A model generated the notes under the pieces. The model was not told the DNA's origin. It saw nothing but the letters and a program-made list of their open reading frames with translations, and ran no database searches. DNA of 64,000 bases from assembly GCF_000744775.1 (NCBI RefSeq), contig NZ_JQMP01000004.1, forward strand, positions 372,001-436,000, in the 5' to 3' direction. Shown piece after piece: positions 8,907 to 24,072 of this stretch; positions within the stretch are counted from its first letter, which is position 1, and each line of letters begins with the position of its first letter. This stretch comes from Thermorudis peleae (GTDB lineage: Bacteria; Chloroflexota; Chloroflexia; Thermomicrobiales; Thermomicrobiaceae). The position numbers and the translations under genes are program-made.

Positions 8907-11591
8907 ATGGCACAGACAACACCGGCAGGCGATTTAGCCCCGGCATATCAGCCGCAAGAGGTCGAATCACACTGGTATGACTGGTGGGAATCCAAGGGCT
9001 ATTTCACCCCAACAATCGATCCACAGCGAAAGCCATTTGTGATCATCATGCCTCCTCCGAACGTGACTGGAGAGCTTCACATGGGACATGCCCTCTTCGT
9101 CGCTGTTGAAGACCTGCTTATTCGCTGGCGACGGATGCAGGGCTATCCCACGCTTTGGCTCCCCGGCGCTGACCATGCTGGGATAGCCGGGCAATGGGTT
9201 GTAGAGCGTGAGTTGCTGAAGGAAGGGTTAACACGCCACGACCTCGGCCGCGAGAAGTTTTTGGAGCGTGTTTGGGACTGGATGAACCGCTATCGCGGCA
9301 GGATTCGTGAGCAACTGCGTATTCTTGGCGCATCCTGTGATTGGACTCGCTTCCGTTTCACGATGGATCCAGGACCTTCACGCGCAGTCCGTACAGCATT
9401 TAAACGGCTGTACGACAAGGGCCTCATTTACCGCGGTGAGCGCCTCATCAACTGGTGTCCGCGCTGTATGACGGCCCTGTCCGATCTCGAAGTCGAACAC
9501 GAAGAGACCGATGGCCAACTTTACTACCTGCGCTATCCGCTCGAGGACGGCAGTGGGGCATTAGTGGTGGCAACGACACGTCCTGAGACGATGCTCGGCG
9601 ACACGGGTGTTGCCGTGCACCCTGATGATCCGCGCTATCACGATGTCATCGGCAAGACTGCCGTGCTGCCCATCCTTGGTCGACGACTCCGGATTGTTGC
9701 CGATGCTGCAGTTGACCCTGAATTTGGCACTGGCGCAGTGAAAGTGACGCCAGCTCACGATTTCACAGACTTTGAGATTGGTCAGCGGCATGGCCTCCCG
9801 GCTGTCAACATCTTGAATGAGGATGGAACGCTGAACGCTGAAGCGGGCCCGTTTGCTGGCCTAACCATTGCCGAGGCACGCCAGCACGTCGTTGCCCGAC
9901 TTGAGCAAGAAGGGGCACTGGTGAAAGTTGAGCCACACCGTTATTCGCTGGGCCATTGCCAGCGGTGTGGCGCTGTTGTTGAACCATTGATCAGCAAGCA
10001 GTGGTTCGTCAAGATGGCACCACTCGCTGGGCCAGCAATCGAGGTTGCCAAGAATGGCACAGTGCGCTTCATTCCCGAACGCTTCGTGAACGTGTACCTG
10101 CACTGGCTGGAGAACGTCCGAGATTGGTGCATCTCCCGGCAACTCTGGTGGGGGCATCGGATTCCAGTCTGGTACTGCAGCGACTGCGGCCAAGTGTCAG
10201 TGACCGACCAAGAGACACTTGAACGCTGCCAGCACTGCGGGAGCACGCAGATTGAGCAAGATCCTGACGTGCTCGATACCTGGTTCAGCTCTGGTCTTTG
10301 GCCCTTCAGCACGCTTGGCTGGCCAGATGACACGGAAGATCTCCGATACTTTTACCCCAGCTCAGTCATGGAAACCGGCTATGACATCCTCTTCTTCTGG
10401 GTCGCTCGGATGATTTTCCTTGGTCTTGAGTTTATGGGTACGCCACCGTTTCATACGGTGTACCTCCATGGGACGGTGCGTGATGAGCGCGGCGAGCGCA
10501 TGAGCAAGACCAAGGGCAACGTGATCGACCCAACCGAGATCACGGCACAGTATGGCAGCGACGCACTGCGCTTCACCCTCCTCACCATGGCCGGCCCTGG
10601 GTCAGACATGAAGCTAAGCGTGCAGCGAGTTGAAGCAAGCCGCAACTTCGGGAACAAGATCTGGAATGCGACCCGCTTCGTCTTGCGTGCACTGAATAAC
10701 GCGCCGCTTGAGGTCGACGCTGATGGGAATCCCACACCACCCGCGCATGAAGCGGCAAGCCTTGCCGACCGCTGGATGCTCAGTCGATTGCAGCGAACCA
10801 TTGAAACCATCACGGACCAGCTTGAACGCTACCAGTTCCACGAAGCTGGACACCACCTCCACGAGTTCATCTGGTCAGAGTTCTGCGACTGGTACATTGA
10901 GGCATCGAAAGTGGCGCTCAACCAAGGTGGAGCTTCGGCCCAAGCGGCACGCCAAACGTTAGCGGTCGTCCTTGAGCGCACACTCCGGCTTCTCCATCCG
11001 TTTATGCCTTTCCTCACCGAAGAACTCTGGCAGCGCCTCCCCCATGCCGGGGAGAGTATCATGGTCGCCCCATGGCCGACGCCTGATGCACAGTGGATCG
11101 ATGACGAAGCAGAAGGCGAATTTGGGTTCCTTATTGATGTCATTCGCGCGATCCGCAACGCGCGTGCCGAAGCGGGTGTTGAGCCAGCGCGCTGGATTCA
11201 AGCAATGATCTATCCTGGTAGCCATGGTCACGCCTTCAAGACAGCGGAACCTGTACTCCGCTTTCTTGCTCGGCTTGCTGATGATGGCATCCAGTATCTC
11301 GATGCCCTTCCGGAGAATCCCGAGCATGTCATAACGCTGGTCGTCGACGATGCCGTGGTCTATCTTCCACTTCGCGGGATGGTTGACCTTGCTGCTGAAC
11401 GTGCGCGCCTTGATCGCGAGATTGCGGAAGTGCAAGCTGAAATCGAGCGCGCGCGGCAACTGCTTGCCAACGACCAGTTTGTCCAGCGAGCGCCAGCCCA
11501 TGTCGTTGAGCGACAGCGCGCCAAACTCGCCGATGCGGAAGAACGCCTCGCACTCTTGCTCTCCCAACGGGCTGCGCTTCAAGAGAAATGA
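8907..11591 (+). CDS. valS: Valine--tRNA ligase
   Basis: An 894-residue class Ia aminoacyl-tRNA synthetase that charges tRNA-Val in the cytosol. The HIGH-type signature is ELHMGHAL (residues 56-63) and the KMSKS-type signature is RMSKTKGNV (about residue 532). The editing domain lies between them with a TTRPETMLGDTG motif. Two CxxC pairs (HCQRCG, then WYCSDCG with CQHCG) suggest bound zinc, as in some thermophilic ValRS. The last 70 residues form the coiled-coil tRNA-binding arm typical of the family. The ATG follows AAGGAGG. The leader carries a terminator-like hairpin. Confidence 0.97.
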   Translation: MAQTTPAGDLAPAYQPQEVESHWYDWWESKGYFTPTIDPQRKPFVIIMPPPNVTGELHMGHALFVAVEDLLIRWRRMQGYPTLWLPGADHAGIAGQWVVERELLKEGLTRHDLGREKFLERVWDWMNRYRGRIREQLRILGASCDWTRFRFTMDPGPSRAVRTAFKRLYDKGLIYRGERLINWCPRCMTALSDLEVEHEETDGQLYYLRYPLEDGSGALVVATTRPETMLGDTGVAVHPDDPRYHDVIGKTAVLPILGRRLRIVADAAVDPEFGTGAVKVTPAHDFTDFEIGQRHGLPAVNILNEDGTLNAEAGPFAGLTIAEARQHVVARLEQEGALVKVEPHRYSLGHCQRCGAVVEPLISKQWFVKMAPLAGPAIEVAKNGTVRFIPERFVNVYLHWLENVRDWCISRQLWWGHRIPVWYCSDCGQVSVTDQETLERCQHCGSTQIEQDPDVLDTWFSSGLWPFSTLGWPDDTEDLRYFYPSSVMETGYDILFFWVARMIFLGLEFMGTPPFHTVYLHGTVRDERGERMSKTKGNVIDPTEITAQYGSDALRFTLLTMAGPGSDMKLSVQRVEASRNFGNKIWNATRFVLRALNNAPLEVDADGNPTPPAHEAASLADRWMLSRLQRTIETITDQLERYQFHEAGHHLHEFIWSEFCDWYIEASKVALNQGGASAQAARQTLAVVLERTLRLLHPFMPFLTEELWQRLPHAGESIMVAPWPTPDAQWIDDEAEGEFGFLIDVIRAIRNARAEAGVEPARWIQAMIYPGSHGHAFKTAEPVLRFLARLADDGIQYLDALPENPEHVITLVVDDAVVYLPLRGMVDLAAERARLDREIAEVQAEIERARQLLANDQFVQRAPAHVVERQRAKLADAEERLALLLSQRAALQEK

Positions 11592-11914
11592 AGGGGGTCA
11601 CACTACGGCACAGAGCCATATCCACGTTATCCGTTGTTACTTGATAACAGGACAAATCACGGCAGAACGTGATGGTTTGACAGAAGCAGCACACCCGGCG
11701 TGGGCGCCTATTTCCTCCGGAGCAGCAGTATGAGGACTTGGAAGGCAGGAGGGAGGTGGGATGCTATCGGATCTGAGTTAAAACGACGATGACCTATTTT
11801 TGAACTTTATCCCGTGCCCCGCTACGTCGGGCGTGGCATGCTCAGTAATCATTGATCATGAACCCAAGCGGCAACGATCGCAGCACTAGCCAACAACCGC
11901 CTGGTTGCTCCGGC
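11592..11914. other. Convergent intergenic region
   Basis: 323 bp between the ends of valS and the propeller gene. I see no gene here and no clear intrinsic terminator; a GCCCCGC..GTCGGGCGTGGC stretch near 11818-11838 could fold weakly. Confidence 0.4.
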
Positions 11915-13837
11915 TTAGCTGCCAGCATGCTCAGGGACAAGCAGGCGTCCCCAGACTCGGCCATATGCATCTACCGCAAATGCGAGCAGTCCAGACAAGT
12001 TGTGCGCGAGTGCCAAGCCGAGAATCGGCGCGTCCTCTAATCCCTCACTCCACGCGGTTAACGCGTCGTCTTCGCCACGTACGATAAAGACAGCAGGGCC
12101 AGCGGCGAGGAGCAACCGACACCAGGGGAAAGCTGTGGGAGGACGTGCGACGGCCGTCAGTGGGGATGGGGTGAGAGAAGGAAGGGCGCTCCACACCGGC
12201 TCTGAACCTCCTGTATCCCACCGGCCTCGCCAAAGCGTATCGTCCAATCCTACCCAGATTTCCTCCCACTGCGTCAGGTCATCGGAGAGGGCAAGGTGGG
12301 ACGTTGGAGGATCAGGCTGTCGAAGCCAAGCTAGCCAAGACCGCCCACCATCAACTGAAGCGCGAAGCGTTATATCCAGTTGTCCTTGAGCATCAAATGT
12401 CGATGTCAGCGCAAGGAGAACGATCTGGCCAGAGTCACGCCGGGTGACGGCAATTGCCCGCACGATGTTTCCTTCGCCAAACTGGCCCGTTTGCCAGTCT
12501 TTTCCACCATCTGTCGAATACCACCACGTGCCATCGCGCATTGCTGCGAAAATGACATCACCGTCAGCACGAGCATTTGCCGTCACAGCGAGTAAGCGCG
12601 CTGGAGCTAACGACGGTGTCAGGAGATCCCATGTTATTCCACCATCACCACTTCGCCAGAGTCCATCGCTCGCTTGGAGATAAAGGCGCGACGTTGAGCG
12701 CACATGAATAAGATGAAAGAACAGTCGTGAGACGCCATTCAGCTGCGTGCTCCAGACTCCCTGCGGGAGGTCACCGCACAACACACCGTGCTCAAGCCAA
12801 GCCGTAACCACCCGAATCTGATGCTTGTGTTCCACCACTGCAGCAAGGCCGGAAGGCACCGCTGCCATAAGCGGCACAGGCCACGGTCGCCATTCATGAG
12901 TCGATGGATTCCATGACCAGACCCCGGAACGAAGACATCCAGCAAGCAGTTGCTCGTCAGTAGCATTCGGCGCGAAGGAAGCAAACGACAAGCTGAGTAC
13001 GGGAGACGGCAACGATCCCAAATCATGCCACTTGCGCCCGCCGTCAGGAGACCAGAGAACGTGTTGATCCACCGCGACGGCAAGATGTTGCCCATGAGCA
13101 TTGACGGCAACCGCGGTGACGCCTTCGGCCTGCTCGAGCGGAAGCCGACGCCAATGCTCGCCCGCATCATCCGATGTGAACACGCCATAGTTGTCAACAC
13201 TGACGAAGAGGCGCCGGTCTTCAGCAAAGCGCGGCGAGACTACAATAGAGGTAATGACAGGATCAGCCACGGGAAAATGGAGTGGGCGCCAGCTTGCACC
13301 ACCATTACGCGTCCCAAAGAGACCGCTTTCTGTCGCGACGAATCCGAGCCGATCATAGGCAAATGTCGGCGAAAGTGCCAATGCCAAGACGGAAAGATCG
13401 GGAAGCCCCACATTGCGGCTTTTCCACGTCGTGCCGCCATCATCTGAACAGAAAATTCCATCACGTTCGGTACCAATAAAAATCGCAGGCTGCTCTCCAT
13501 CCTCAGCAACGGCAAGAGCAGTAACACGGCTTCCTACCAAGACCGGTTCCCACGGCTGATGTTCACCCCGTAGCCGAAATAGCCCATGCGGTGTTCCGGC
13601 AAACCACAGACAACTGCCATCCTGAGTAGGAACATAGGCAAGCGTCTCAACCAGAAGTGGTACTGTTGTGCCGAGCCATCGCCAACCAAACGATGGAGGT
13701 TCCGCAATGGCCACACCAGACGGTGTTCCAGCAACGAGGATGCTTTTCCCGTTATCGCAGACACTGAGGAGCGTTAAGACAGTAGCCCCTTCTACCTGAG
13801 CGAGCAGCGACCAACGCGTCTGGGTAAGTGGAAACAC
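11915..13837 (-). CDS. Asp-box (BNR) beta-propeller protein
   Basis: A 640-residue protein built of repeated beta-propeller blades. At least seven Asp-box turns are visible: SDDGGTTW, TRNGGASW, SDDAGEHW, SPDGGRKW, SGDGGITW, STDGGKDW and SVDGGRSW. This is the pattern of BNR/sialidase-like and Ycf48-like propellers, which bind ligands or scaffold protein complexes rather than share one reaction. No signal peptide is seen, so a cytosolic location is likely. The GTG start has GGAG six bases upstream. It is last in a row of five same-strand genes and lies 21 bp after the chaperonin-like gene, which suggests a joint function or co-expression. The sialidase Arg triad is not recognisable, so I do not call it an enzyme. 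Confidence 0.75.
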   Translation of the reverse strand: MFPLTQTRWSLLAQVEGATVLTLLSVCDNGKSILVAGTPSGVAIAEPPSFGWRWLGTTVPLLVETLAYVPTQDGSCLWFAGTPHGLFRLRGEHQPWEPVLVGSRVTALAVAEDGEQPAIFIGTERDGIFCSDDGGTTWKSRNVGLPDLSVLALALSPTFAYDRLGFVATESGLFGTRNGGASWRPLHFPVADPVITSIVVSPRFAEDRRLFVSVDNYGVFTSDDAGEHWRRLPLEQAEGVTAVAVNAHGQHLAVAVDQHVLWSPDGGRKWHDLGSLPSPVLSLSFASFAPNATDEQLLAGCLRSGVWSWNPSTHEWRPWPVPLMAAVPSGLAAVVEHKHQIRVVTAWLEHGVLCGDLPQGVWSTQLNGVSRLFFHLIHVRSTSRLYLQASDGLWRSGDGGITWDLLTPSLAPARLLAVTANARADGDVIFAAMRDGTWWYSTDGGKDWQTGQFGEGNIVRAIAVTRRDSGQIVLLALTSTFDAQGQLDITLRASVDGGRSWLAWLRQPDPPTSHLALSDDLTQWEEIWVGLDDTLWRGRWDTGGSEPVWSALPSLTPSPLTAVARPPTAFPWCRLLLAAGPAVFIVRGEDDALTAWSEGLEDAPILGLALAHNLSGLLAFAVDAYGRVWGRLLVPEHAGS

Positions 13838-13858: not shown

Positions 13859-15547
13859 TTATGGGTGAGCTGCTACCGCCGGCCAGGTGCGGTGAATCAA
13901 TGCTCCAGTCGAAAGAACCATGCGAACTATACTCACCGCCGTCTCAATCGCCGTGTCAATGACCTGGACGGGATCAAGTAGCCCTTCCAGCCAGGGATCA
14001 ACCCACGACTGACGCAGGACATCAAAGGCCGCCGTTGGACAGCGATCAGCCTCCGCAAGCACTCTGCCCGGCTCAATGCCAGCATTGGTCAGGATAACCC
14101 GGATCGGTTCCGTAAGCGCTGTACCGAACGCGTTGCGTATTGCAACCTCGCAGGGGTCAGCTCGCATTGGCAGAGCACGAAGCTCACGAGCAATCCCAAG
14201 CAAGGTTGCGCCACCACCTGGAACAAGACCGCCGCTTAACGCGGCCTGCGCTGTCTTAACGGCCGATTCAGCAACCAGCCGCCGCGCCTCACGTTCCCGA
14301 GGTACGGCACCTCCAACCTGAAGACGAGCCGTTACCCCGGTTAAGCGTGCAATCCGCTCCTGTGCTTTCGTCCGGAGATACGCATCGTCTGCTCTGGCTA
14401 GGGCCGCACGCGCGGCGCGCAACCGGGCTCGCACTCGTTCCCGATCAAGGTGGCCGCCAAGAATACCGAAATGCCGCAGTGTTGCCCACACATGCCGCGC
14501 TCTGCCAAGCACTGCTATCGAGGAAGCTGACAACGACTCCCCTCCGTTGCAGTGCACCACGAACCCGCCCGTTAACGCCGCCAGATCTTCCAAGATTTCC
14601 TGCTGCTGCCACCCAACTGAGGGTGCCTGCAGCGCGACAATCTGCTCAAAGACACCGCGCTCACCGTTGCGTACCAAAAGCGCAAGCGCATCATGGCGTA
14701 TCTCTCCAGCAATGATCACGAGGCGACGAATATTTGATGCAAGACAACGCTCGAGAAACGGAAGGAGTTCAACACCCTTCGTCACCGCGCCATCGAGCAG
14801 CAAGATCCGTGGCTCATGCACGCGGCAACATCCATCAGGAGCCTGAAGCCATATCGGTGAGAGGACACCACTATCCCATACAATGCCCTCTTCATAGACA
14901 CAGGTAGGATCGGCGCTCACTCCCTCCTCGAGCAAGACAACACCTTCGGGACCAACTGCATCAACTGCCTCACTGAGAAGGCGAGCAAGGACAGGATCAT
15001 AGACAGCACGCTGGATTACCGCGTGGAGTTGATCGAACGATATATCGGTTTTTGCATGCTCCAACAAATTCGCCCGGACACAATGCCAAACCTGCTCAAG
15101 CACACGCTCAAGCTGAGAAATACTCCATCCAGCTTCCGCAACACGAAGCACTTCCCGCAACAGCGCAGCGCTTAATACGGCTGTTGTCGCACAACCATCG
15201 CCCACACGCTCATAGACGCGCCAGACTGCATGGCGCAGGAGCATGGCCCCAGCATTCTCGAACGGATCGGGCAACTCAATCACGCGGCGTGCGATCGTCG
15301 CCGCATGGTCAAGGATTTCCGGGGAACCATTCCCAACAATTGGACGGATCAATACCGAACGCGGCAACGGGCCAAGGGTTGGACGGAGCAACGAAGTCAT
15401 GATCGTTGCTCCGCGCAACAAGGCGCGCCAAGCAGCGTGATCATACCGAATAGGAGCACCCTGACCCCGAATGCGCCCAGTCATCGAGCAAGAAAGCACA
15501 CGATACGTGCCGCTCTCTGGTTGCCTTTCCCTATTACCCTTAGGCAC
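13859..15547 (-). CDS. Divergent chaperonin-60 (GroEL-like) protein
   Basis: About 562 residues, colinear with GroEL but strongly diverged. Recognisable parts are TLGPLPRSV (residues 57-65; GroEL has TLGPKGRNV), GDGCATTAVL (116-125; GroEL GDGTTTATVL) and GGLVPGGGATLL, which opens the second equatorial half. By hand alignment the position of the catalytic Asp398 of GroEL is a Ser (AESAVKTAQAAL segment), and the Lys-Gly of the nucleotide loop is Leu-Pro. The GroEL C-terminal Gly-Gly-Met repeats are absent. It is therefore unlikely to be the housekeeping chaperonin. The GTG start overlaps the upstream lipoprotein gene by 8 bp; an ATG at 15484 is an alternative. The propeller gene follows 21 bp later. 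Confidence 0.75.
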   Translation of the reverse strand: MPKGNRERQPESGTYRVLSCSMTGRIRGQGAPIRYDHAAWRALLRGATIMTSLLRPTLGPLPRSVLIRPIVGNGSPEILDHAATIARRVIELPDPFENAGAMLLRHAVWRVYERVGDGCATTAVLSAALLREVLRVAEAGWSISQLERVLEQVWHCVRANLLEHAKTDISFDQLHAVIQRAVYDPVLARLLSEAVDAVGPEGVVLLEEGVSADPTCVYEEGIVWDSGVLSPIWLQAPDGCCRVHEPRILLLDGAVTKGVELLPFLERCLASNIRRLVIIAGEIRHDALALLVRNGERGVFEQIVALQAPSVGWQQQEILEDLAALTGGFVVHCNGGESLSASSIAVLGRARHVWATLRHFGILGGHLDRERVRARLRAARAALARADDAYLRTKAQERIARLTGVTARLQVGGAVPREREARRLVAESAVKTAQAALSGGLVPGGGATLLGIARELRALPMRADPCEVAIRNAFGTALTEPIRVILTNAGIEPGRVLAEADRCPTAAFDVLRQSWVDPWLEGLLDPVQVIDTAIETAVSIVRMVLSTGALIHRTWPAVAAHP

Positions 15548-17003
15548 GGTTTTCAGGCTTGCTGTAGATTTCCTGGGCAGCCTTCACGAAGTTTGCGAGC
15601 GCATCAGCTGGCTTCAATTTCTTAACGACCAGATCTTGCATCATATCACCAATGACGAATTTGGTGGTTAACTCACCGAAAGCGCCGAGTGGGGCAGCAG
15701 CGTAGCCCATAATACGTCCTGTCTCGATAATCTTCTGATACTCTGAATAGAGGGGATTCTTTGTCCAAAGGTCAGCCTTAATCATATCTTTCCAACAAGG
15801 AATAAAGCGCCCATTGAGCTTATTGTTAATGTAATCGGCGTACCACGTTGGATCGAGAATTGAGAGCAACAAAATGCGAGCATTATCGCCGCCTTTGCCG
15901 TTCTTAAACAACGCCTCTGTCCACACATCGACCATACCGAATGAACCAGCTGGCCCAGCAGGCCAGTTGTAGAGGCGGGTCTTCTTGGCAAGGTCAGGCT
16001 TGTTCTGCAGCAGCCAATTATAGACACTAGTAGGATTAGCCGTTATGACAAGTTGCTCGCTTTGAAATCCCTGGTTATTTCCCCCGTCGTCCCAGTTTAC
16101 AGAACCAGGCGGAATGATCTTGTCATCAAGGTACATCGTTTGAATCAACGCGAGTGTATCGAGCCATGCTTTGTCATTCGCGGTTACCGCCAGCGTGCCA
16201 TCTTCATTCTGCAATTTCCCACCGAAAGTCCAAACCATACCGATGACATGGTTATTGGTATCGTTCGTTTTCCCAAGCGTCATGCCGTAGTAATAGAGCG
16301 GTGGCTTCGTTAAGGCTTTCCCTTGCGTACGCACTTCATCCCAGTTGGCCGGATATTTAAAGCCAGCTTGATCAAGCAGATCCTGCCTGGTATGGAATGG
16401 CCAGGCATTGACCGTGTAGGGTGCGGCCCACCAGCGCCCTTTGTAAACACACGTCTGCTCCACAGGCTGCCAGACCCCGCCGTTTTGTTGAATATACGGT
16501 TGTACGAGATCAGTTACATCAACAGTTTGCCCCTGAGCGCGCCAAAACTGCGTTTGGTAATCATAGAGCCGGTAAATGTCAGGTGGTGTGCCCGCCTGCA
16601 CGGCAGCATTGAAGCGGTTATAGCCCTGCGGGTTATTGGGGATCTCCTCGAACGTAACGGAGAAGCCTTTCTCTTGTGCCACCTGGGTGAACCGCTCCTT
16701 CAAGAGCGCAGTCGTTTGCGGCAGATAGTCGACCGTTTGCCAGATCACGACCTGCTGGCCGGCAACTGGCTTTAGCTGCGGGGTGCCAAGCGCTGCAGCA
16801 GTGGTGGTTGCTTGCGCGGATGGCGTCGCAGCGCCACTGGCCTTCGTTGCGGCAGCCGTTGGCGTGGAAGCAGCAGGAGCCTTCGTCGGTGTTACCGTCG
16901 GGGAACTCGCACCACCACCACACGCTGCAACCGCAACCGCCCCGGCACCAGTAGCCAACAAAGACAGAAACGCTCGACGAGAGAAACGTCGTTCCTCAAC
17001 CAT
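15540..17003 (-). CDS. ABC transporter substrate-binding lipoprotein (sugar type, family 1)
   Basis: A 487-residue extracellular solute-binding protein. The N-terminus has a Tat-like SRRAFLSLL motif, a hydrophobic stretch and a lipobox AVAACGGG, so it should be exported and lipid-anchored at Cys. A 40-residue Thr/Ala/Pro linker follows. The mature part has the family 1 fold signature: VVIWQTVDYLPQT strand, a NRFNAAVQAGTPPDI segment and many Trp residues suited to carbohydrate stacking. It lies 56 bp after the two permease genes, completing an importer of the MalEFG type. No ATPase gene accompanies it, so a shared MsmK/MalK-type ATPase must be encoded elsewhere. The sugar is unknown. Confidence 0.9.
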   Translation of the reverse strand: MVEERRFSRRAFLSLLATGAGAVAVAACGGGASSPTVTPTKAPAASTPTAAATKASGAATPSAQATTTAAALGTPQLKPVAGQQVVIWQTVDYLPQTTALLKERFTQVAQEKGFSVTFEEIPNNPQGYNRFNAAVQAGTPPDIYRLYDYQTQFWRAQGQTVDVTDLVQPYIQQNGGVWQPVEQTCVYKGRWWAAPYTVNAWPFHTRQDLLDQAGFKYPANWDEVRTQGKALTKPPLYYYGMTLGKTNDTNNHVIGMVWTFGGKLQNEDGTLAVTANDKAWLDTLALIQTMYLDDKIIPPGSVNWDDGGNNQGFQSEQLVITANPTSVYNWLLQNKPDLAKKTRLYNWPAGPAGSFGMVDVWTEALFKNGKGGDNARILLLSILDPTWYADYINNKLNGRFIPCWKDMIKADLWTKNPLYSEYQKIIETGRIMGYAAAPLGAFGELTTKFVIGDMMQDLVVKKLKPADALANFVKAAQEIYSKPENRA

Positions 17004-17059: not shown

Positions 17060-17968
17060 TTAATCTTTCACTGCACCGGCTGTCCACCCAGCAATCACCC
17101 ACCGTTGACCGAAAAGGTAGACGATCAATGGAGGAAGCGACATGATTGTCGCGGCAGCCATCATTTGCCCCCAGTAAAATTGGTCACCTATGACATACGC
17201 AGAGAGCCCCACAGGCGCCGTCATCACGTCCTCGCGTTGAAGCAGCACCAGGGCATACAGGAATTCATTCCAAGAGAGGGTAAATGCGAACACTGCCGCG
17301 ACAACAATCGCGGGTAGCGAAAGTGGAACGACAATCCGCCACAAGACGCGCCATCGGCTCGCGCCATCAATCAGCGCGGCCTCCTCAAGCTCGATTGGCA
17401 CGGAGCGAAAGTAGCCCATGAGCATCCACGTTGCGAACGGCAACGTAAACGTCAAATATGCCAGAATCAAACCCAACAAGTTATCGCGCAGCCCCAAACG
17501 ATTCATCATCATAAAGATCGGGATAAAAAGGATTGTTCCAGGAGCTAAGTAGGCATAAATCAACAACCGTGCAAACGCAGCGCGGCCAAAGAACTGGAGC
17601 CGTGTTAACGCGTAGCCGGCCATCGCGCCCAGCACGGTGGAAACCACTGTCGTAATGACAGCCACAACAAAGCTATTTCGCAGTTGTATCGCAAATGCGC
17701 TCGTGTTGCTAAAAATTTTGGCATAGTGTTTCAGCGTCAAGACATGTGGAAGAAGTGTGACATGCGAGCTATAGAGATCGACATCCGCACGGACTGAGGT
17801 CGCGAGTTGCCAGTAGACCGGGAACAGCGTCCAAAGACTCAGTACAACGAGAAGCGTATAGCCAAGGATCATATATCCCCGACCGCGGTAGGCAAGCCAC
17901 CTCCGTAAGGCCTGCACGCGTGATGGTTGGGCCGTCGTCCGCAACACTTCAACCCGTTCGGCCATCAC
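17060..17968 (-). CDS. ABC transporter permease (MalG-like)
   Basis: A 302-residue inner-membrane permease with six predicted helices. The conserved cytoplasmic EAA loop reads EEAALIDGASRWRVLWRIV, the contact site for the ATPase. The first helix begins after a basic 30-residue tail. It pairs with the MalF-like gene just upstream, overlapping its stop by 4 bases (ATGA), and the binding protein follows. Together they would import a carbohydrate, most likely an oligosaccharide or polyol; the sequence does not reveal which. Confidence 0.92.
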   Translation of the reverse strand: MMAERVEVLRTTAQPSRVQALRRWLAYRGRGYMILGYTLLVVLSLWTLFPVYWQLATSVRADVDLYSSHVTLLPHVLTLKHYAKIFSNTSAFAIQLRNSFVVAVITTVVSTVLGAMAGYALTRLQFFGRAAFARLLIYAYLAPGTILFIPIFMMMNRLGLRDNLLGLILAYLTFTLPFATWMLMGYFRSVPIELEEAALIDGASRWRVLWRIVVPLSLPAIVVAAVFAFTLSWNEFLYALVLLQREDVMTAPVGLSAYVIGDQFYWGQMMAAATIMSLPPLIVYLFGQRWVIAGWTAGAVKD

Positions 17969-18915
17969 CGTTCCTCCTGCTGGAGCATACGTCGAGTCAA
18001 AAAGTAAATCATGACAGCAAAAAGCGGGAAAAAGAGCAGAGGAATTGTCGCTGCAATGCCAAGATCATAGGCCTGCATCCCTTGGTGATAGGCCAAAATG
18101 GGAAAAGTCTCCGTGACGTTCGCTGGCCCGCCATTCGTCAATACATAGACATATTGAATCGCGTTCGACGTCCAAATTGCTGAGAGCATCGTCGTGACAA
18201 TGATGACTGGCATGAGGTTGGGCAAAGTGATACGCCAGAAGGTCTGGGCTGAGGTTGCCCCGTCAATCTGGGCTGCTTCATAGAGCTCGCGCGGGATTGC
18301 CTGTAGCCCAGCCAGAAACGTCATGATCCAAAACGGCGCACCTTGCCAAATAACTGCAATAAGGACAGACCAGAGCGCGAGTCGCGGATCTGATAGGAAG
18401 AGAATGGGATCCTTGATCAACCCCAGCCGTAGCAAAATCGTATTAAGAACGCCATTAACATCGTTGTAGATCCACTTCCAGGAAAATGCACTGACGACCG
18501 CAGGAATAGCCCAGGGAACAAAGAGCAGGGTCCGCCAAAACCGTCGTGCACGAATTTCTGCGTTAAGAATTAATGCACTCACCATTCCAATGATGAATTT
18601 TCCTATAAGAGCTCCACCAGTATAGAGGAACGTCACCTTAACACTATTCCAAAATAATCCATGAATTTGGCTTTGTCGATCAAAGAGGATGCGCACATAG
18701 TTGGCAAAACCAATAAAGTGGCCCTGTCCGCCAACCTTAATATCCTGTAAGCTCAGCCACACAGCATAGCCTAGTGGATAGGCGATGAGCCCAAGGACAA
18801 CCACAACGGCCGGCAAGAGCAGCGCGTATCCAAGCTGCCAGTCTCGTCCAAGCCGAGAACGATGAGGAGACCGTACGTTGCTTTGCTGATGCTCCGCCAC
18901 CTGCACTGCTGACAT
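17965..18915 (-). CDS. ABC transporter permease (MalF-like)
   Basis: A 316-residue inner-membrane permease of the MalF/UgpA type, with about six helices and the EAA loop YEAAQIDGATSAQTFWRIT. The ATG at 18915 is preferred because AGAGGA lies 9 bases before it; the open frame extends 20 codons further upstream without a ribosome site. It is the first gene of a run of five close or overlapping genes (permeases, binding protein, chaperonin-like protein, propeller), with a good candidate promoter 32 bp upstream. Confidence 0.9.
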   Translation of the reverse strand: MSAVQVAEHQQSNVRSPHRSRLGRDWQLGYALLLPAVVVVLGLIAYPLGYAVWLSLQDIKVGGQGHFIGFANYVRILFDRQSQIHGLFWNSVKVTFLYTGGALIGKFIIGMVSALILNAEIRARRFWRTLLFVPWAIPAVVSAFSWKWIYNDVNGVLNTILLRLGLIKDPILFLSDPRLALWSVLIAVIWQGAPFWIMTFLAGLQAIPRELYEAAQIDGATSAQTFWRITLPNLMPVIIVTTMLSAIWTSNAIQYVYVLTNGGPANVTETFPILAYHQGMQAYDLGIAATIPLLFFPLFAVMIYFLTRRMLQQEER

Positions 18916-18946
18916 GCACGTGATCCTCTCATCGGATGACAGGGCT

Positions 18947-18975
18947 ATTGTAATAGGGGCATCGGGAACAGGCAA
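18947..18975 (-). promoter_or_regulatory. Candidate promoter of the sugar ABC operon
   Basis: On the minus strand TTGCCT (18970-18975) and TACAAT (18947-18952) are separated by 17 bp, about 32 bp upstream of the MalF-like start codon. Confidence 0.5.
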
Positions 18976-19023: not shown

Positions 19024-19902
19024 CTAGCTCTCTCGTTGATACGGCAGCCCAAGCGCGTGTGGCTTGGCTGCACCCCAGCGCAGGCTAAACCAACGTGTTG
19101 ACATGACGACAAAGACAACAACCGTGATCAGAAACGGTACCGCTCGCCAGAGATAGCGCGAAAAGAAATTGGGGAAGAGCAGTTCAGGATAAAGGGAGAG
19201 TTGCCAAAGAACTCCAAAGAGCACAGCGCCAAGTAGCACCAGCAAGGGATTCCAGAGCGAAAAGAAGACAAGCGCCAGGGCAATGAACCCCCAGCCTTGC
19301 AGGTAGTTGTAACTCCATACTGGGTTATAGATCAAAGAATACACGCCGCCAGCAAGCCCAACCAACGCGCCAGCGAGTACAGCTGCGAGGTAGCGCAGCC
19401 GAATGACTGCAATGCCGCTCGACTCGGCCACAGCAGGATTCTCACCCACCGATCGCAGCTGTAACCCAATATGCGTGCGGTAGAGTAAGAACCAAATTGC
19501 CCCCGCAAGGACAAGGGCAAGGATGAAAAACGGCGGAAGGCCCAAAAGATTTGGAAACTGCTTCAAGCCAAGGGGGCCGGTATAGGGATACCCAACATAG
19601 GTGGTTAGTCCAAAGCCAAAGATCCAGATTGCCATGCCATTTACAACCTGATTGCTTCCAAGGGTGATGGAGAAAAAGCCATGGATGAGACCGACCAGTG
19701 CTCCGATCGCGAGGGCAACCAAGAATCCCCACAGGTAGTGACCAGTCGTTTTCGCGACAATGAAACCAAACGTCCCACTGAGCAACATGACGCCTTCTAA
19801 TCCGACGTTCAAGATTCCAGCACGCTGCTCGAGTAATTCGCCAAGGGCAGCGATGGCAAAGACAGCAGCAGCTGCCAGACTAATGGTGAGGAGATTCGAC
19901 AC
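19024..19902 (-). CDS. Nucleoside-type ABC transporter permease (NupQ/YufQ-like)
   Basis: A 292-residue permease of the ribose/nucleoside (RbsC-like) superfamily, with about eight hydrophobic helices. The segment LEQRAGILNVGLEGVMLLSG is diagnostic for the BMP-associated permeases. The GTG at 19902 follows TTGGAGAG, and the gene overlaps the other permease by 23 bp. It forms the second membrane subunit of the importer encoded at 19024-24072 together with the two-domain ATPase and the BMP lipoprotein. The family imports purine or pyrimidine nucleosides in characterised cases; the exact substrate here is inference. Confidence 0.88.
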   Translation of the reverse strand: MSNLLTISLAAAAVFAIAALGELLEQRAGILNVGLEGVMLLSGTFGFIVAKTTGHYLWGFLVALAIGALVGLIHGFFSITLGSNQVVNGMAIWIFGFGLTTYVGYPYTGPLGLKQFPNLLGLPPFFILALVLAGAIWFLLYRTHIGLQLRSVGENPAVAESSGIAVIRLRYLAAVLAGALVGLAGGVYSLIYNPVWSYNYLQGWGFIALALVFFSLWNPLLVLLGAVLFGVLWQLSLYPELLFPNFFSRYLWRAVPFLITVVVFVVMSTRWFSLRWGAAKPHALGLPYQRES

Positions 19903-21046
19903 GGCTCTCTCCAATCTCACGCTGGGGTACTGCTGCAGGCACACGATGTTCAAGAGCAAGCCGATAGTGGGCTAACGCCTGAAACGCCACTATCACAAGC
20001 ATGAGAACGCCAAGCAGCGCATAGTCAATACCGAACGCTAGACGCAGCTTGCCTTGCATGAAGCGTGCCCCACTCGCAACGCCGCCGAAAAGCAAGGCGA
20101 CTGGTATCGCAGCAATCGGGTTGTTCTGTGCAATCAAGCCGGTAATAAGCCCGTAGAAACTGAAGTCGCCGAAATCGTTGTAGCTCTTGGGAATCTTATA
20201 GACACCAGGCACCGCGGCAAAATAGTGATATCCCGCAAAGCCCGCAAACAGGCCACCAAGCAAGAACACGAATGTGCACAAAAACCCCTCACGTATCCCA
20301 GCATAGCGTGCGGCAGCTGGACTGGCACCAAACGCGCGAATCTGGTACCCAATTGTTGTTTTCGCTAAAACAATAGACAGGAAAACGGCTAGTACCAACG
20401 TCGCGTAGACCGTGAGTGGCAAATTCCAAAGCTGTGGCATGCGCGCTGCGAGTGGCAAGCTGAAGCCTTCGCCTTCCGCCGTTCGCCCCATGAAGGGTCC
20501 ACCCTCACGAATCATGTGCGCGACCAGCCAGAGCATAACCGAGTTCAACATCATCGTTGTGACAATTTCGTTGACCTGGAGCTTGCCACGGAGCAAGCCC
20601 GGAATTGCGCCGTACAGTGCTCCGCCAGCCATCGCACCAAGAACCATCAGCGGGATAACGATCACCCCTGGGATCGGCGCATTCACCGAGGTTTTTGCGC
20701 CAAACGCATACGCGACGCTAAATGCCGCCAGCATCCCAGCATAGACTTGGCCGGGCATGCCGATATTCCAGAGGCCAGCACGAATTGGCACGATAAAGGC
20801 ATAGGCACAGAGCAAGATAAAGACGGCGCGGTTGATCGTCTGAGGCAACCCGTACTGGCTCAGGAACGCATACTGAATAATCTCACGATAAACAGCCACT
20901 GGACTCGCCCCAACATGGAGAAAGGCGAAGCCAACAAGCACGAGCGAGACAACGACTGCAAGCACAGAAGCCACGGCTGATTGCCACCATCGCAGTGTTG
21001 ACCGTCGCTCAATCCGTATGGTGGTATTTCCAACGTTTACCCTCAT
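19880..21046 (-). CDS. Nucleoside-type ABC transporter permease (NupP/YufP-like)
   Basis: A 388-residue integral membrane protein with eight to ten hydrophobic segments. The segment PIRAGLWNIGMPGQVYAGML corresponds to the conserved 'NIGxEGQ' motif of this permease class, and GAIPGLLRGKLQVNEIVTTMMLN follows it. Its ATG overlaps the stop of the ATPase gene by 4 bases, and the second permease starts before this one ends, so all three are translationally coupled. Confidence 0.9.
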   Translation of the reverse strand: MRVNVGNTTIRIERRSTLRWWQSAVASVLAVVVSLVLVGFAFLHVGASPVAVYREIIQYAFLSQYGLPQTINRAVFILLCAYAFIVPIRAGLWNIGMPGQVYAGMLAAFSVAYAFGAKTSVNAPIPGVIVIPLMVLGAMAGGALYGAIPGLLRGKLQVNEIVTTMMLNSVMLWLVAHMIREGGPFMGRTAEGEGFSLPLAARMPQLWNLPLTVYATLVLAVFLSIVLAKTTIGYQIRAFGASPAAARYAGIREGFLCTFVFLLGGLFAGFAGYHYFAAVPGVYKIPKSYNDFGDFSFYGLITGLIAQNNPIAAIPVALLFGGVASGARFMQGKLRLAFGIDYALLGVLMLVIVAFQALAHYRLALEHRVPAAVPQREIGESRVESPHH

Positions 21047-22584
21047 GCTGGCTCCCTGCGTAGTCCAGCCATCAATTCACCAATGTGCTCTCGTGTTGCA
21101 TCAGCAGCAGGCAGAACGCCCGTAAATGTTCCTTCATACATCGCTGCGATGCGGTCACTCAAGGCCAGTATTTCGTCGAGATCTTCCGAGATCAACAGGA
21201 TCGCTGTCCCATCCTGCTGTGCCTCGCGCAACTTTCGATGGACAAATTCAGCAGCCCCAATGTCAAGACCATGGGTTGGCAGGCAGGCAATGAGCAAACG
21301 GGGACGTCGTGCAAGAACACGTCCAAGGATGATCTTCTGGAGATTGCCACCAGACAGGGAACGTGCCGGTGCTTCCACCCCGGCCGTGACAACACGGTAG
21401 TCACGTACGACGGTCTCGGTCAGCGCACGTGCTCGTTCCGTAGCGACAAACCCGAAGCGCGACATCGTTGGCTCGTCATAGAAGTTCAGCAACACGTTGT
21501 CCGTTAAAGAGAATTCGGGGATAGAGCCAACCTCGCGGCGTTGCGCTGGAATGTAGCCAACCCCACGTCGCCAGCGATCACGGACACTCGAGCGGGTGAT
21601 ATCGTGCCCAGCAAGAACAATGTGGCCACGTTCGACTGCGCGCAAGCCAGCAATTGCCTCAGCTAAGGCTTCTTGGCCATTGCCTGCTACTCCAGCAATA
21701 CCAAAGATTTCCCCTTCGTGAACAACAAACGAGAGACCCTTGACCGCAAGAAGCCCACGATCATCGCGCACCCACAAATCCTGAACCTGGAGCATTGGTG
21801 AGCCGATGCGTGTTTCGCCACGTTCGTGGGTCAGCGCAATCTCTTGCCCGACCATTGCGGCAGCGAGGCTTTGCTCGGTTGCTGAATGCGTTTCAACCTC
21901 GGCAACAACACGCCCGCGACGCAGGATCGTCACACGATCGGTATGCTCAAGTACCACTGGCAACTTATGGGTGATAAAGGGAATGACGGCAAGATCATCT
22001 TTGGACAGCCGTTGCAGTGATGTGAGCAAGGCGAGCACTTCAGGTGGGGAGAGCACAGAGGTCGGCTCATCCAAAATCAAAATTTTCGCGCCGTAGTAGA
22101 GCGCTTTGATAATCTCGACAAGCTGCTTCTCGCCCTCTGAAAGTTGCCACACCCGCGCGTGCAGGGGAATGCGAAATCCATAGCGTTCACACAATGCTGC
22201 AACGTCCCGTTCCGCATCGCGCAGATTGAGGATCATTTTGGTCTTCGGATGCCCTAAGACAATATTCTCGAGTACAGTGTGGGCAGAAATGAGTCGGCGC
22301 TCCTGATGCACCATTCCGATACCATGCTGCAGCGCATCCCGTGGACTCCGGAACTGAACGCGCTGTCCCCAGAGATAAATCTCGCCTTCATCAGGCTGAA
22401 GCTCTCCAAAGAGAATGCGCATCAGGGTGGTTTTCCCAGCGCCATTTTCTCCGAGAATCGCGTGAATTTCGCCAGCGCGAACCGTGAGGTCGATATGATC
22501 GTTGGCTACAACTGTGCCAAAGCGCTTGGTAATGCCACGCGCCTCAAGCACGACGTGACCGCGCTCTATGGGCCGCATAGTCAC
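21043..22584 (-). CDS. ABC transporter ATPase with two nucleotide-binding domains (NupO/YufO-like)
   Basis: A 513-residue protein with two ATPase domains in tandem. The first has Walker A GENGAGKTT, signature LSEGEKQLVEI and Walker B ILILDEPTSVL. The second has the altered Walker A GVAGNGQEAL and the signature LSGGNLQK, the usual asymmetry of sugar/nucleoside importers such as RbsA and YufO, in which one site is weak. It energises the two permeases encoded downstream and lies 75 bp after the BMP lipoprotein gene. Confidence 0.92.
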   Translation of the reverse strand: MTMRPIERGHVVLEARGITKRFGTVVANDHIDLTVRAGEIHAILGENGAGKTTLMRILFGELQPDEGEIYLWGQRVQFRSPRDALQHGIGMVHQERRLISAHTVLENIVLGHPKTKMILNLRDAERDVAALCERYGFRIPLHARVWQLSEGEKQLVEIIKALYYGAKILILDEPTSVLSPPEVLALLTSLQRLSKDDLAVIPFITHKLPVVLEHTDRVTILRRGRVVAEVETHSATEQSLAAAMVGQEIALTHERGETRIGSPMLQVQDLWVRDDRGLLAVKGLSFVVHEGEIFGIAGVAGNGQEALAEAIAGLRAVERGHIVLAGHDITRSSVRDRWRRGVGYIPAQRREVGSIPEFSLTDNVLLNFYDEPTMSRFGFVATERARALTETVVRDYRVVTAGVEAPARSLSGGNLQKIILGRVLARRPRLLIACLPTHGLDIGAAEFVHRKLREAQQDGTAILLISEDLDEILALSDRIAAMYEGTFTGVLPAADATREHIGELMAGLRREPA

Positions 22585-22659
22585 TCCTCACGAGCCGTAC
22601 GGCAAGACTACGCTGTCAACCTGATTATTAGCCTCCTCCGATGATTGCATTTTGCTCAT

Positions 22660-24072
22660 CTACGGAAGAATCGTCACACCTTCGAGATCAAAATTGAACT
22701 TCGTCAAAATCCACTCGGTTGTTGGGGCTTGCCCTGCAGGCTTGACCGTCGTCCCTTTCGCCGGAATCGGCGTATCCTGTAGCTTCAGCCCGGTTCCATT
22801 ACTCACAAGCGCATTGGCCGTAAAGGGATCCCACTGCCCCTTTTGCATTTGCTCCCGCCGCTGGCGGACGAGATCAACAATTTCCTTGGGTAAGATCTGA
22901 GCGGCCTTGGGGCTAATGGCATCGACGCCAACTTTCATATCGTTCATCAAGTCAACGGTAGCCTCTTCGGTTCCATCCGCCAGCTTCATCGTCGACTCAA
23001 GGCCCAAGAACATGACCTCATCAGGCTTCTGCGACTTCATCATGGCCTGAATAATGCGATCATAGAGCACTTCCCACCGAGTGTCGAAGGACACCGCGAC
23101 GGTGTTCGTATCGGCCCACTTGTAGAAGCCCACGATATCCATATCTTTGCCGACGAACCACACCCCTTTGGCCTTGCAGACGTCCAGGGTAGAACCGGAG
23201 TCGGTCTGCTGGGTGAGGACGTCGCAGTTATATTGACTAACGAGTGTTTCAGCAACTGCCCGCTCTTCAGCAGGAAGATACCAGTCACCGACGTATTTGA
23301 TATAAATCTTGGCGTTCTTATTGAGCGTTCGGTTCGCCTCCTGGACACCCAGGATGAAGCCCGCTTGCCGATGCAACACCTGGATATTAGGGAAGGCGGA
23401 AACGATTCCGATATTACCGGTCTTCGTCAAGGCCCCCGCGACAAGCCCTTCGAGATACAGCGTTTGATACTGACGTGGGAAAATCCGAATGAAGTTCGGT
23501 TGATGGGTAAGATCACTCGCAACAATCGCGACAAAGATCTTATTGGGATACTTGCTCGTAATATCAAGCAATGGTAAGCCGATGAATTCGGCATTCCCCA
23601 CGATAATGTCGGCGTTCTCTTTGGCAATCATTTCCTCAGCAAATGGGACAGCTTGATCCGGGCCAACTTGCTCACGATAGATGTACTTGAGGTTCTGATA
23701 TTTCTGCGTCAACCGCTTCGCAGCGCGATCGTGTGCCCCAGACCACGTGGTGCCTTCGATCACGCTAAAATGCAAGATTGCCAGTGTGATTGGCTTGCCG
23801 GATGTTGTCGATGTCGCCGCTGCGGCCGTCGCAGCAGCCGTCGGTGTTGTCCCAGCGGCGGCTGCCCCAGTCGGCGTTGCCGCACTTGGCGCCTTTGTTG
23901 CAGGAGGCTGTGTCGCAGCAGATGGAGCTGACGTCGGTGTTGTTTGCCCACCACCACAGGCAGCTAAGAGTGCACTCAATAACGGCGCTGCCGTGCTCGC
24001 GAGCACTCCACGCATGAAGGTTCGGCGTGACAGCGGGTAACGCCCAAGACCTTTCAGATCCCGCTCGTTCAT
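22660..24072 (-). CDS. BMP-family substrate-binding lipoprotein (nucleoside type)
   Basis: A 470-residue exported lipoprotein. The N-terminus carries a Tat-like SRRTFMRGV motif and a lipobox LLAACGGG, then a 45-residue Ala/Thr/Pro linker. The mature domain matches the Bmp/PnrA family: ILHFSVIEGTTWSGAHDRAA at its start and VLTQQTDSGSTLDVCKAKGVWFVG in the second lobe. Such proteins deliver nucleosides to the YufOPQ-type permease. It is first of the four-gene importer operon. The opposite-strand mutL start lies about 500 bp upstream, leaving room for regulation. Confidence 0.9.
   Translation of the reverse strand: MNERDLKGLGRYPLSRRTFMRGVLASTAAPLLSALLAACGGGQTTPTSAPSAATQPPATKAPSAATPTGAAAAGTTPTAAATAAAATSTTSGKPITLAILHFSVIEGTTWSGAHDRAAKRLTQKYQNLKYIYREQVGPDQAVPFAEEMIAKENADIIVGNAEFIGLPLLDITSKYPNKIFVAIVASDLTHQPNFIRIFPRQYQTLYLEGLVAGALTKTGNIGIVSAFPNIQVLHRQAGFILGVQEANRTLNKNAKIYIKYVGDWYLPAEERAVAETLVSQYNCDVLTQQTDSGSTLDVCKAKGVWFVGKDMDIVGFYKWADTNTVAVSFDTRWEVLYDRIIQAMMKSQKPDEVMFLGLESTMKLADGTEEATVDLMNDMKVGVDAISPKAAQILPKEIVDLVRQRREQMQKGQWDPFTANALVSNGTGLKLQDTPIPAKGTTVKPAGQAPTTEWILTKFNFDLEGVTILP

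Follow-up and report, generated by a model that had tools for sequence, protein, structure and literature searches.

What is a relative of GroEL that lacks the catalytic aspartate, Asp398, doing in a sugar-uptake operon, given that textbooks describe group I chaperonins as machines that cycle on ATP? The question is posed by a chaperonin-60-like gene at 13859..15547 on the minus strand of the window (the whole 64,000-nucleotide stretch of Thermorudis peleae DNA analysed here). This interval is filled by an intact minus-strand ORF, and the plus strand of the same interval contains 10 stops. Five minus-strand genes follow one another here: permF (17965..18975), permG (17060..17968), a solute-binding protein (SBP) gene (15540..17003), the chaperonin-like gene and a beta-propeller gene (11915..13837, 640 aa). 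permF and permG encode permeases of the MalF/UgpA and MalG/UgpE/GlcU types, respectively, as recognized by Pfam and NCBIfam/PRK profiles; PF00528 was matched in both, and the UgpA/MalF and GlcU/MalG profiles were matched with every score below the equivalog cut-off. The SBP is a lipoprotein with a Tat-type signal (SRRAFL...C), matches sugar-binding chains of known structure weakly, and is 76-78% identical in the sister genus. An SBP and two MalF/MalG-type permeases give the locus the make-up of a CUT1-type sugar importer.

The original prediction had the chaperonin-like gene overlapping the SBP gene. An overlap of 8 nt exists only when GTG 15547 is taken as the start (562 aa), whereas the homologues align with ATG 15484 (541 aa), which is the more likely start on this alignment and would put about 55 nt between the two genes. 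The propeller was correctly placed after the chaperonin-like gene; it lies 21 nt downstream, and a GGAG motif precedes its GTG start. An ORF reading of 19024-24072 (minus strand), immediately upstream of the sugar importer, gives a second importer-like set, composed of two permease-like ORFs, an ABC ATPase and a lipoprotein with a Tat-type signal; this set and the chaperonin-like gene perhaps form one long operon.

Judged from its sequence and predicted structure, the chaperonin-like protein is homologous to group I chaperonins over its full length. It matches Pfam Cpn60_TCP1 (E-value = 2e-35; 122.8 bits versus a cut-off of 34.3), GroEL chains of the PDB match it along about 520 residues, and its AF2 model (pLDDT 89.7) aligns with GroEL chains over 517-524 residues (Z 39-40). 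The Foldseek TM-score is 0.81 against a GroES-bound closed GroEL subunit (5opx) and about 0.65 against open subunits, a preference that may stem from the predictor's own tendencies. The NCBI GroEL equivalog cut-offs were missed (TIGR02348, 302.7 of 582.1 bits; PRK12849, 339.3 of 352). Pfam, NCBIfam and PDB comparisons agree on a group I chaperonin of full length. The GroEL frame and GDG loop are kept, as had been noticed from the sequence, and the reported change of TLGPKG to TLGPLP was confirmed by alignment; Leu replaces Lys34, and the remainder of the nucleotide site, including the GDG with Asp87, is retained. Likewise, the Ser that had been placed at Asp398 by hand holds in both the sequence alignment and the structure prediction, neither of which restores the Asp. 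Misalignment was ruled out, as the alignment with GroEL has no gap between column 398 and the GGG motif, and this stretch sits inside a single helix predicted by AF2. A further change, absent from the original prediction, is His in the Asp52 column.

At positions that we take to be the GroES/substrate positions of GroEL, the T. peleae protein carries substitutions (V264 to Arg, Y199 to Val, Y203 to Ile and F204 to Trp), and GroES-contact residues are eroded across its relatives. A canonical GroEL, 35% identical to the chaperonin-like protein, is encoded elsewhere in the same genome, and the only GroES found in that genome adjoins it; no GroES gene was recognized in the chaperonin-like operon or nearby. 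Among 12 genomes searched for Cpn10 genes, ten have one and the other two have two.

Relatives were collected from 158 genomes of the class, from 400 of the phylum and, as 65 loci, from 84,980 species genomes; the last scan was based on one motif and misses members that lack it. Before tree building, sequences shorter than 480 aa and near-duplicates (at least 93% identity) were removed, which reduced 111 rows to 93 and left 83 distinct clade members: 70 core, nine basal, and four with Glu398/Asn87. They form one clade separate from the canonical GroELs, with an SH-aLRT of 100 in a quick tree and a support of 100/100 in a mixture-model tree of 37 rows from which column 398 was left out. Nearly all are from Chloroflexota, as judged from their labels or kinship. 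The exceptions are L110, from a MAG labelled Trueperaceae with the entire SBP-permF-permG-chaperonin-like-propeller set, which represents either horizontal transfer or a binning error; L085, from a MAG labelled Proteobacteria, on a contig with the same length and gene order as that of G328, a same-phylum genome; and L149, a weak fragment in an Alphaproteobacteria MAG.

Asp398 is missing in 73 of the 83 members. In the core, position 398 is occupied by Arg (28 members), Glu (19), Ala (6), Lys (6), Ser (5), Gln (3) and three others, one of which is Asp (L148). The nucleotide site is retained there at 97-100% for positions 30, 32, 87, 88, 414, 416 and 495 (for example, T30 and G32 in 70/70, D87 in 69/70 and D495 in 68/69), and Gly415 is present in 63/70. 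Of the core members, 29 of 70 keep Asp52 and 50 of 70, T. peleae among them, have Asp at position 51. The basal members retain the full catalytic set; Asp398 is kept in 9/83, all basal, and three of these nine have a propeller. Loss of Asp398 is thus ruled out as the mark of the whole clade, since these nine keep the residue and L148 has it again. One change at Asp398 was counted on the careful tree (37 rows) versus three on the quick tree; on the careful tree, the residue appears to have been lost once within the clade. The GGM-like tail of canonical GroELs is replaced by a tail of nearly fixed length ending in Pro (for example, LVHRTWPASSAEP), and the C-terminal Pro is found in 13/13 non-core and 65/70 core members, T. 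peleae included. The four loci in which Asp87 is replaced by Asn and Asp398 by Glu (L164, L165, L168 and L178, in G446, G360, G332 and G440, respectively) adjoin long propellers of 702-705 aa, L165 also adjoining a DHDPS-family gene.

Linkage was counted for the 68 members with enough flanking sequence (15 of the 83 were dropped for short flanks), using a propeller profile that started from eight adjacent ORFs and was retrained on 42 of the same set; independent Pfam support (Sortilin/BNR/YCF48) was obtained for all four propellers tested. A propeller lies directly downstream in 39 of the 68 loci and permeases lie within 6 kb in 40, so that the ABC importer setting first noticed at this locus is a recurrent one. 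Either partner is present in 60/68 and both in 19/68; 21/68 have permeases and no propeller, 20/68 a propeller and no permease, and 8/68 neither. By comparison, the flanks of 20 canonical groEL loci (about 7 kb, one shortened by a contig end) contain a propeller or permeases in 0/20, one having a distant SBP. The 2.9 Mb T. peleae genome contains only two propeller matches at E ≤ 1e-20, and the adjacency to the chaperonin-like gene is therefore not chance. Within the family of T. peleae (21 genomes), the orthologous propeller (E ≤ 1e-100) and the chaperonin-like gene, remnants included, share the same seven genomes, and the orthologous SBP (76-77% identity) is found in five of those seven and in none of the remaining family genomes. 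Other neighbours are sugar genes (alpha-L-fucosidase, GH4, GH10 and mandelate-racemase family), and an L-fucose-isomerase-like neighbour scores just under the cut-off.

The propeller is not the universal partner. In a marine subclade with Glu398 and Lys52 (L112, L117-L120, L122, L123, L125-L129, L131-L133 and L145, from Chloroflexota MAGs, many of them sponge or marine by isolate name), its place after the chaperonin-like gene is taken by a membrane protein of 296-358 aa, with four to seven hydrophobic segments in the seven examined and no Pfam match in the two tested. Some MAGs have two members with different partners, as in one isolate with L106 (propeller) and L123 (membrane protein), which fits one paralogue per partner. 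At L049 (G016, about 9000-11640), the chaperonin-like gene is reduced to its last 86 aa beside an intact propeller, and permF, permG and the SBP present in the sister genome G014 are missing, a natural deletion. At L054 (9851-10315) and L103 (8670-9134), the propeller is followed by a protein of 154 aa that has a single hydrophobic segment, at its N-terminus, and matches no Pfam family. Anti-phage defence was rejected as a role, as none of four proteins searched had a PADLOC match.

The T. peleae propeller is of the BNR/Sortilin/YCF48 type, and its AF2 model (pLDDT 87.7) has about 14 blades (2 x 7) by strand count. The nearest solved folds and sequence profiles are those of GH74 xyloglucanases, YCF48/HCF136 and sortilin, and the top Foldseek matches are tandem 7-bladed GH74 enzymes (TM about 0.5-0.57), which superpose over both propellers with an rmsd of 8-9 A and an identity of 11-16%. 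Although it has the tandem 7-bladed fold in common with GH74, the propeller differs in being cytoplasmic: on reading the sequence, no signal peptide is apparent at its N-terminus, and it should therefore stay in the cytoplasm. In a profile alignment considered at the base position only, the residue aligned to what is presumably the GH74 catalytic base is not conserved; this makes a GH74-type enzyme improbable, an argument that covers GH74 chemistry alone. Across the family, propellers are 277-348 or 514-721 aa long (plus one cut-off row of 220 aa), and these two size classes would correspond to one or two propellers, that is, 7 or 14 blades.

The chaperonin-like gene is under purifying selection, yet diverges far faster than groEL. 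Because four of six comparisons between T. peleae and G014 were saturated at synonymous sites, the ratios were taken from closer pairs. Between G014 and G020, dN/dS is 0.14 for the chaperonin-like gene, 0.13 for the propeller, 0.02 for the SBP and 0.015 for groEL, and across unsaturated pairs the chaperonin-like gene gives 0.14-0.21, on which basis a pseudogene was rejected. The identities between G014 and G018 are 69% (chaperonin-like), 54% (propeller), 94% (SBP) and 99% (groEL); the chaperonin-like gene and the propeller are thus both constrained but fast-moving. Their distance matrices, compared for 42 gene pairs, correlate with r 0.88 (0.78 among distant pairs), a value reached in 0/2000 permutations, and the partners have therefore been inherited together. 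With the 39 of 68 loci, this correlation establishes that the pair seen at this locus recurs elsewhere. Any two genes with a joint function that are inherited together would show such linkage and co-divergence equally well, not just a client and its chaperone.

A mechanism is suggested by two precedents. In E. coli GroEL, the D398A mutation leaves ATP binding normal and lowers the ATPase activity to 3%, with encapsulation and folding retained; hydrolysis lets the opposite ring bind ATP and is unneeded for folding inside the chamber (PMC3326522). By analogy, a natural ring without Asp398 and with an ATP site should be able to close but hardly cycle. In the second precedent, the propeller mLST8 sits between the rings of CCT, where the chaperonin termini hold it at the cavity floor (PMC6599039), and it is the C-terminus that is remodelled in the clade proteins. 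From these we infer a client-dedicated, slow or single-turnover propeller cage. The chaperonin-like subunits would form a ring that binds ATP, and binding alone would drive one slow closing step, as in D398A; the propeller would be the cargo, which the conserved tails perhaps keep at the floor of the cavity in the manner of mLST8; and the mature propeller would serve the sugar pathway as a sensor, binding protein or enzyme.

Our preferred explanation, put forward tentatively and as quite possible, is accordingly worded broadly: the gene may encode a specialised group I chaperonin subunit for one or a few neighbour-encoded clients, chiefly the propeller, in a sugar-uptake operon. On the sequence data, a GroEL relative without Asp398 beside a propeller and a sugar importer suggests a private, non-cycling folding cage, and a client-dedicated chaperonin that would bind but barely hydrolyse ATP, with the propeller as main partner, is the best reading of them. 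Several findings count against the propeller as client: it is missing in the 21 permease loci and eight lone loci of the 68, a membrane protein occupies its site in the E398/K52 subclade, and the tail is conserved in members without a propeller too. The eroded GroES contacts and the lack of a GroES nearby also count against this reading, as they bear on how the cavity would close. The original idea that the propeller is folded or stored stays the most economical one, unproven, but the pair on which it was built is not universal (the membrane-protein subclade; 8/68 without either partner). A bolder version, which we think doubtful, is that chaperonins across the phylum gave up ATP hydrolysis and became ATP-locked, single-use or permanent 7-subunit cages, with a neighbour-encoded 7- or 14-bladed propeller as cap or cargo, and with sugar import coupled to assembly of the complex.

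The loss of the catalytic residue from a kept nucleotide site, the eroded GroES contacts, and the fast joint divergence of the chaperonin-like and propeller genes would also fit a lasting ring-propeller assembly, in which the propeller is a cap, plug or display module for sugar sensing or handling and ATP at most locks the ring. The 7 or 14 blades (about 14 in the T. peleae model) match the number of a 7-fold ring; however, this match may be chance, as seven blades are common among propellers, and one subclade has swapped the propeller for a membrane protein. We regard such an assembly as rather unlikely. A Tat-exported SBP must fold in the cytoplasm before export, and a folding aid dedicated to the SBP or to the importer permeases, with the propeller as helper, is an unlikely alternative. 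Directly ahead of the chaperonin-like gene are SBP or permease genes (overlapping it by 4 nt in L119 and L122), SRRxFL-type signals are present on the SBPs, and permeases are near in the 40 loci already counted, propeller-less ones included. However, the SBP at 22660-24072 has the same signal and no chaperonin-like neighbour, conservation is 94-96% for the SBP against 69-88% for the chaperonin-like protein, and 20 loci have a propeller without a permease.

The protein might also still be an ATPase, Asp51, Asp52 or Glu398 substituting, and so a normally cycling chaperonin with a special client. This finds some ground in the 29, 50 (T. peleae included) and 19 of 70 core members with Asp52, Asp51 and Glu398, respectively, and in the full residue set of the basal members, but Arg is the commonest replacement of Asp398 (28/70), many members, including T. 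peleae, lack both Asp52 and Asp398, and a GroEL alanine mutant at 398 has only 3% activity (PMC3326522); we consider it quite unlikely. Far more improbable is a decaying, functionless groEL duplicate. Fast divergence, the G016 remnant and the internal stop found in G015 are what decay would give, but dN/dS is 0.14-0.21 in unsaturated pairs, frames are intact and gene order is conserved across the phylum, the new tail is conserved, and the G016 remnant stems from a deletion that removed the importer as well.

In comparison with known systems, the protein is like GroEL/Cpn60 in its full-length fold, nucleotide-site residues and domain order, and unlike it in having no Asp398 and no GGM-like tail, in Asp52 often being gone, in its eroded GroES contacts and in the absence of an adjoining groES. 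CCT/TRiC, a eukaryotic, hetero-oligomeric group II chaperonin with a built-in lid and an active ATPase, has beta-propeller clients (Gbeta and mLST8), as the candidate client here is a propeller. MimG/PrmG act in their operons as maturation factors, the client being a diiron enzyme. These GroEL-like genes are tabulated with the acetone and propane monooxygenases that they mature (PMC7176365); the likeness is one of gene context, catalytic residues aside, and the candidate client here is a propeller. Chlamydial GroEL2 and GroEL3 are extra copies away from groES, with reported differences in the GroES-binding and ATP-hydrolysis regions (PMC1892554, PMC5904260). The present protein is likewise an extra copy away from groES, but belongs to another phylum and scores only 136.5 of 600 bits with NF038369 and 98.4 of 600 with NF038370.

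We found no description of a chaperonin-propeller pair or of an Asp398-less Chloroflexota chaperonin in the open-licence literature, and Chloroflexota are not among the phyla that one review section lists as rich in multiple chaperonins (PMC5904260). The clade is a new chaperonin subfamily of Chloroflexota, with a function that is inferred. As the ATP site is kept and the catalytic residue dropped, and as basal members still have it, the subfamily would offer a direct test of the purpose of hydrolysis, basal and core members being natural before-and-after pairs. In eukaryotes, beta-propellers are a client type that depends on CCT; the subfamily would provide a chaperonin from bacteria whose candidate client, of this type, is encoded beside it.
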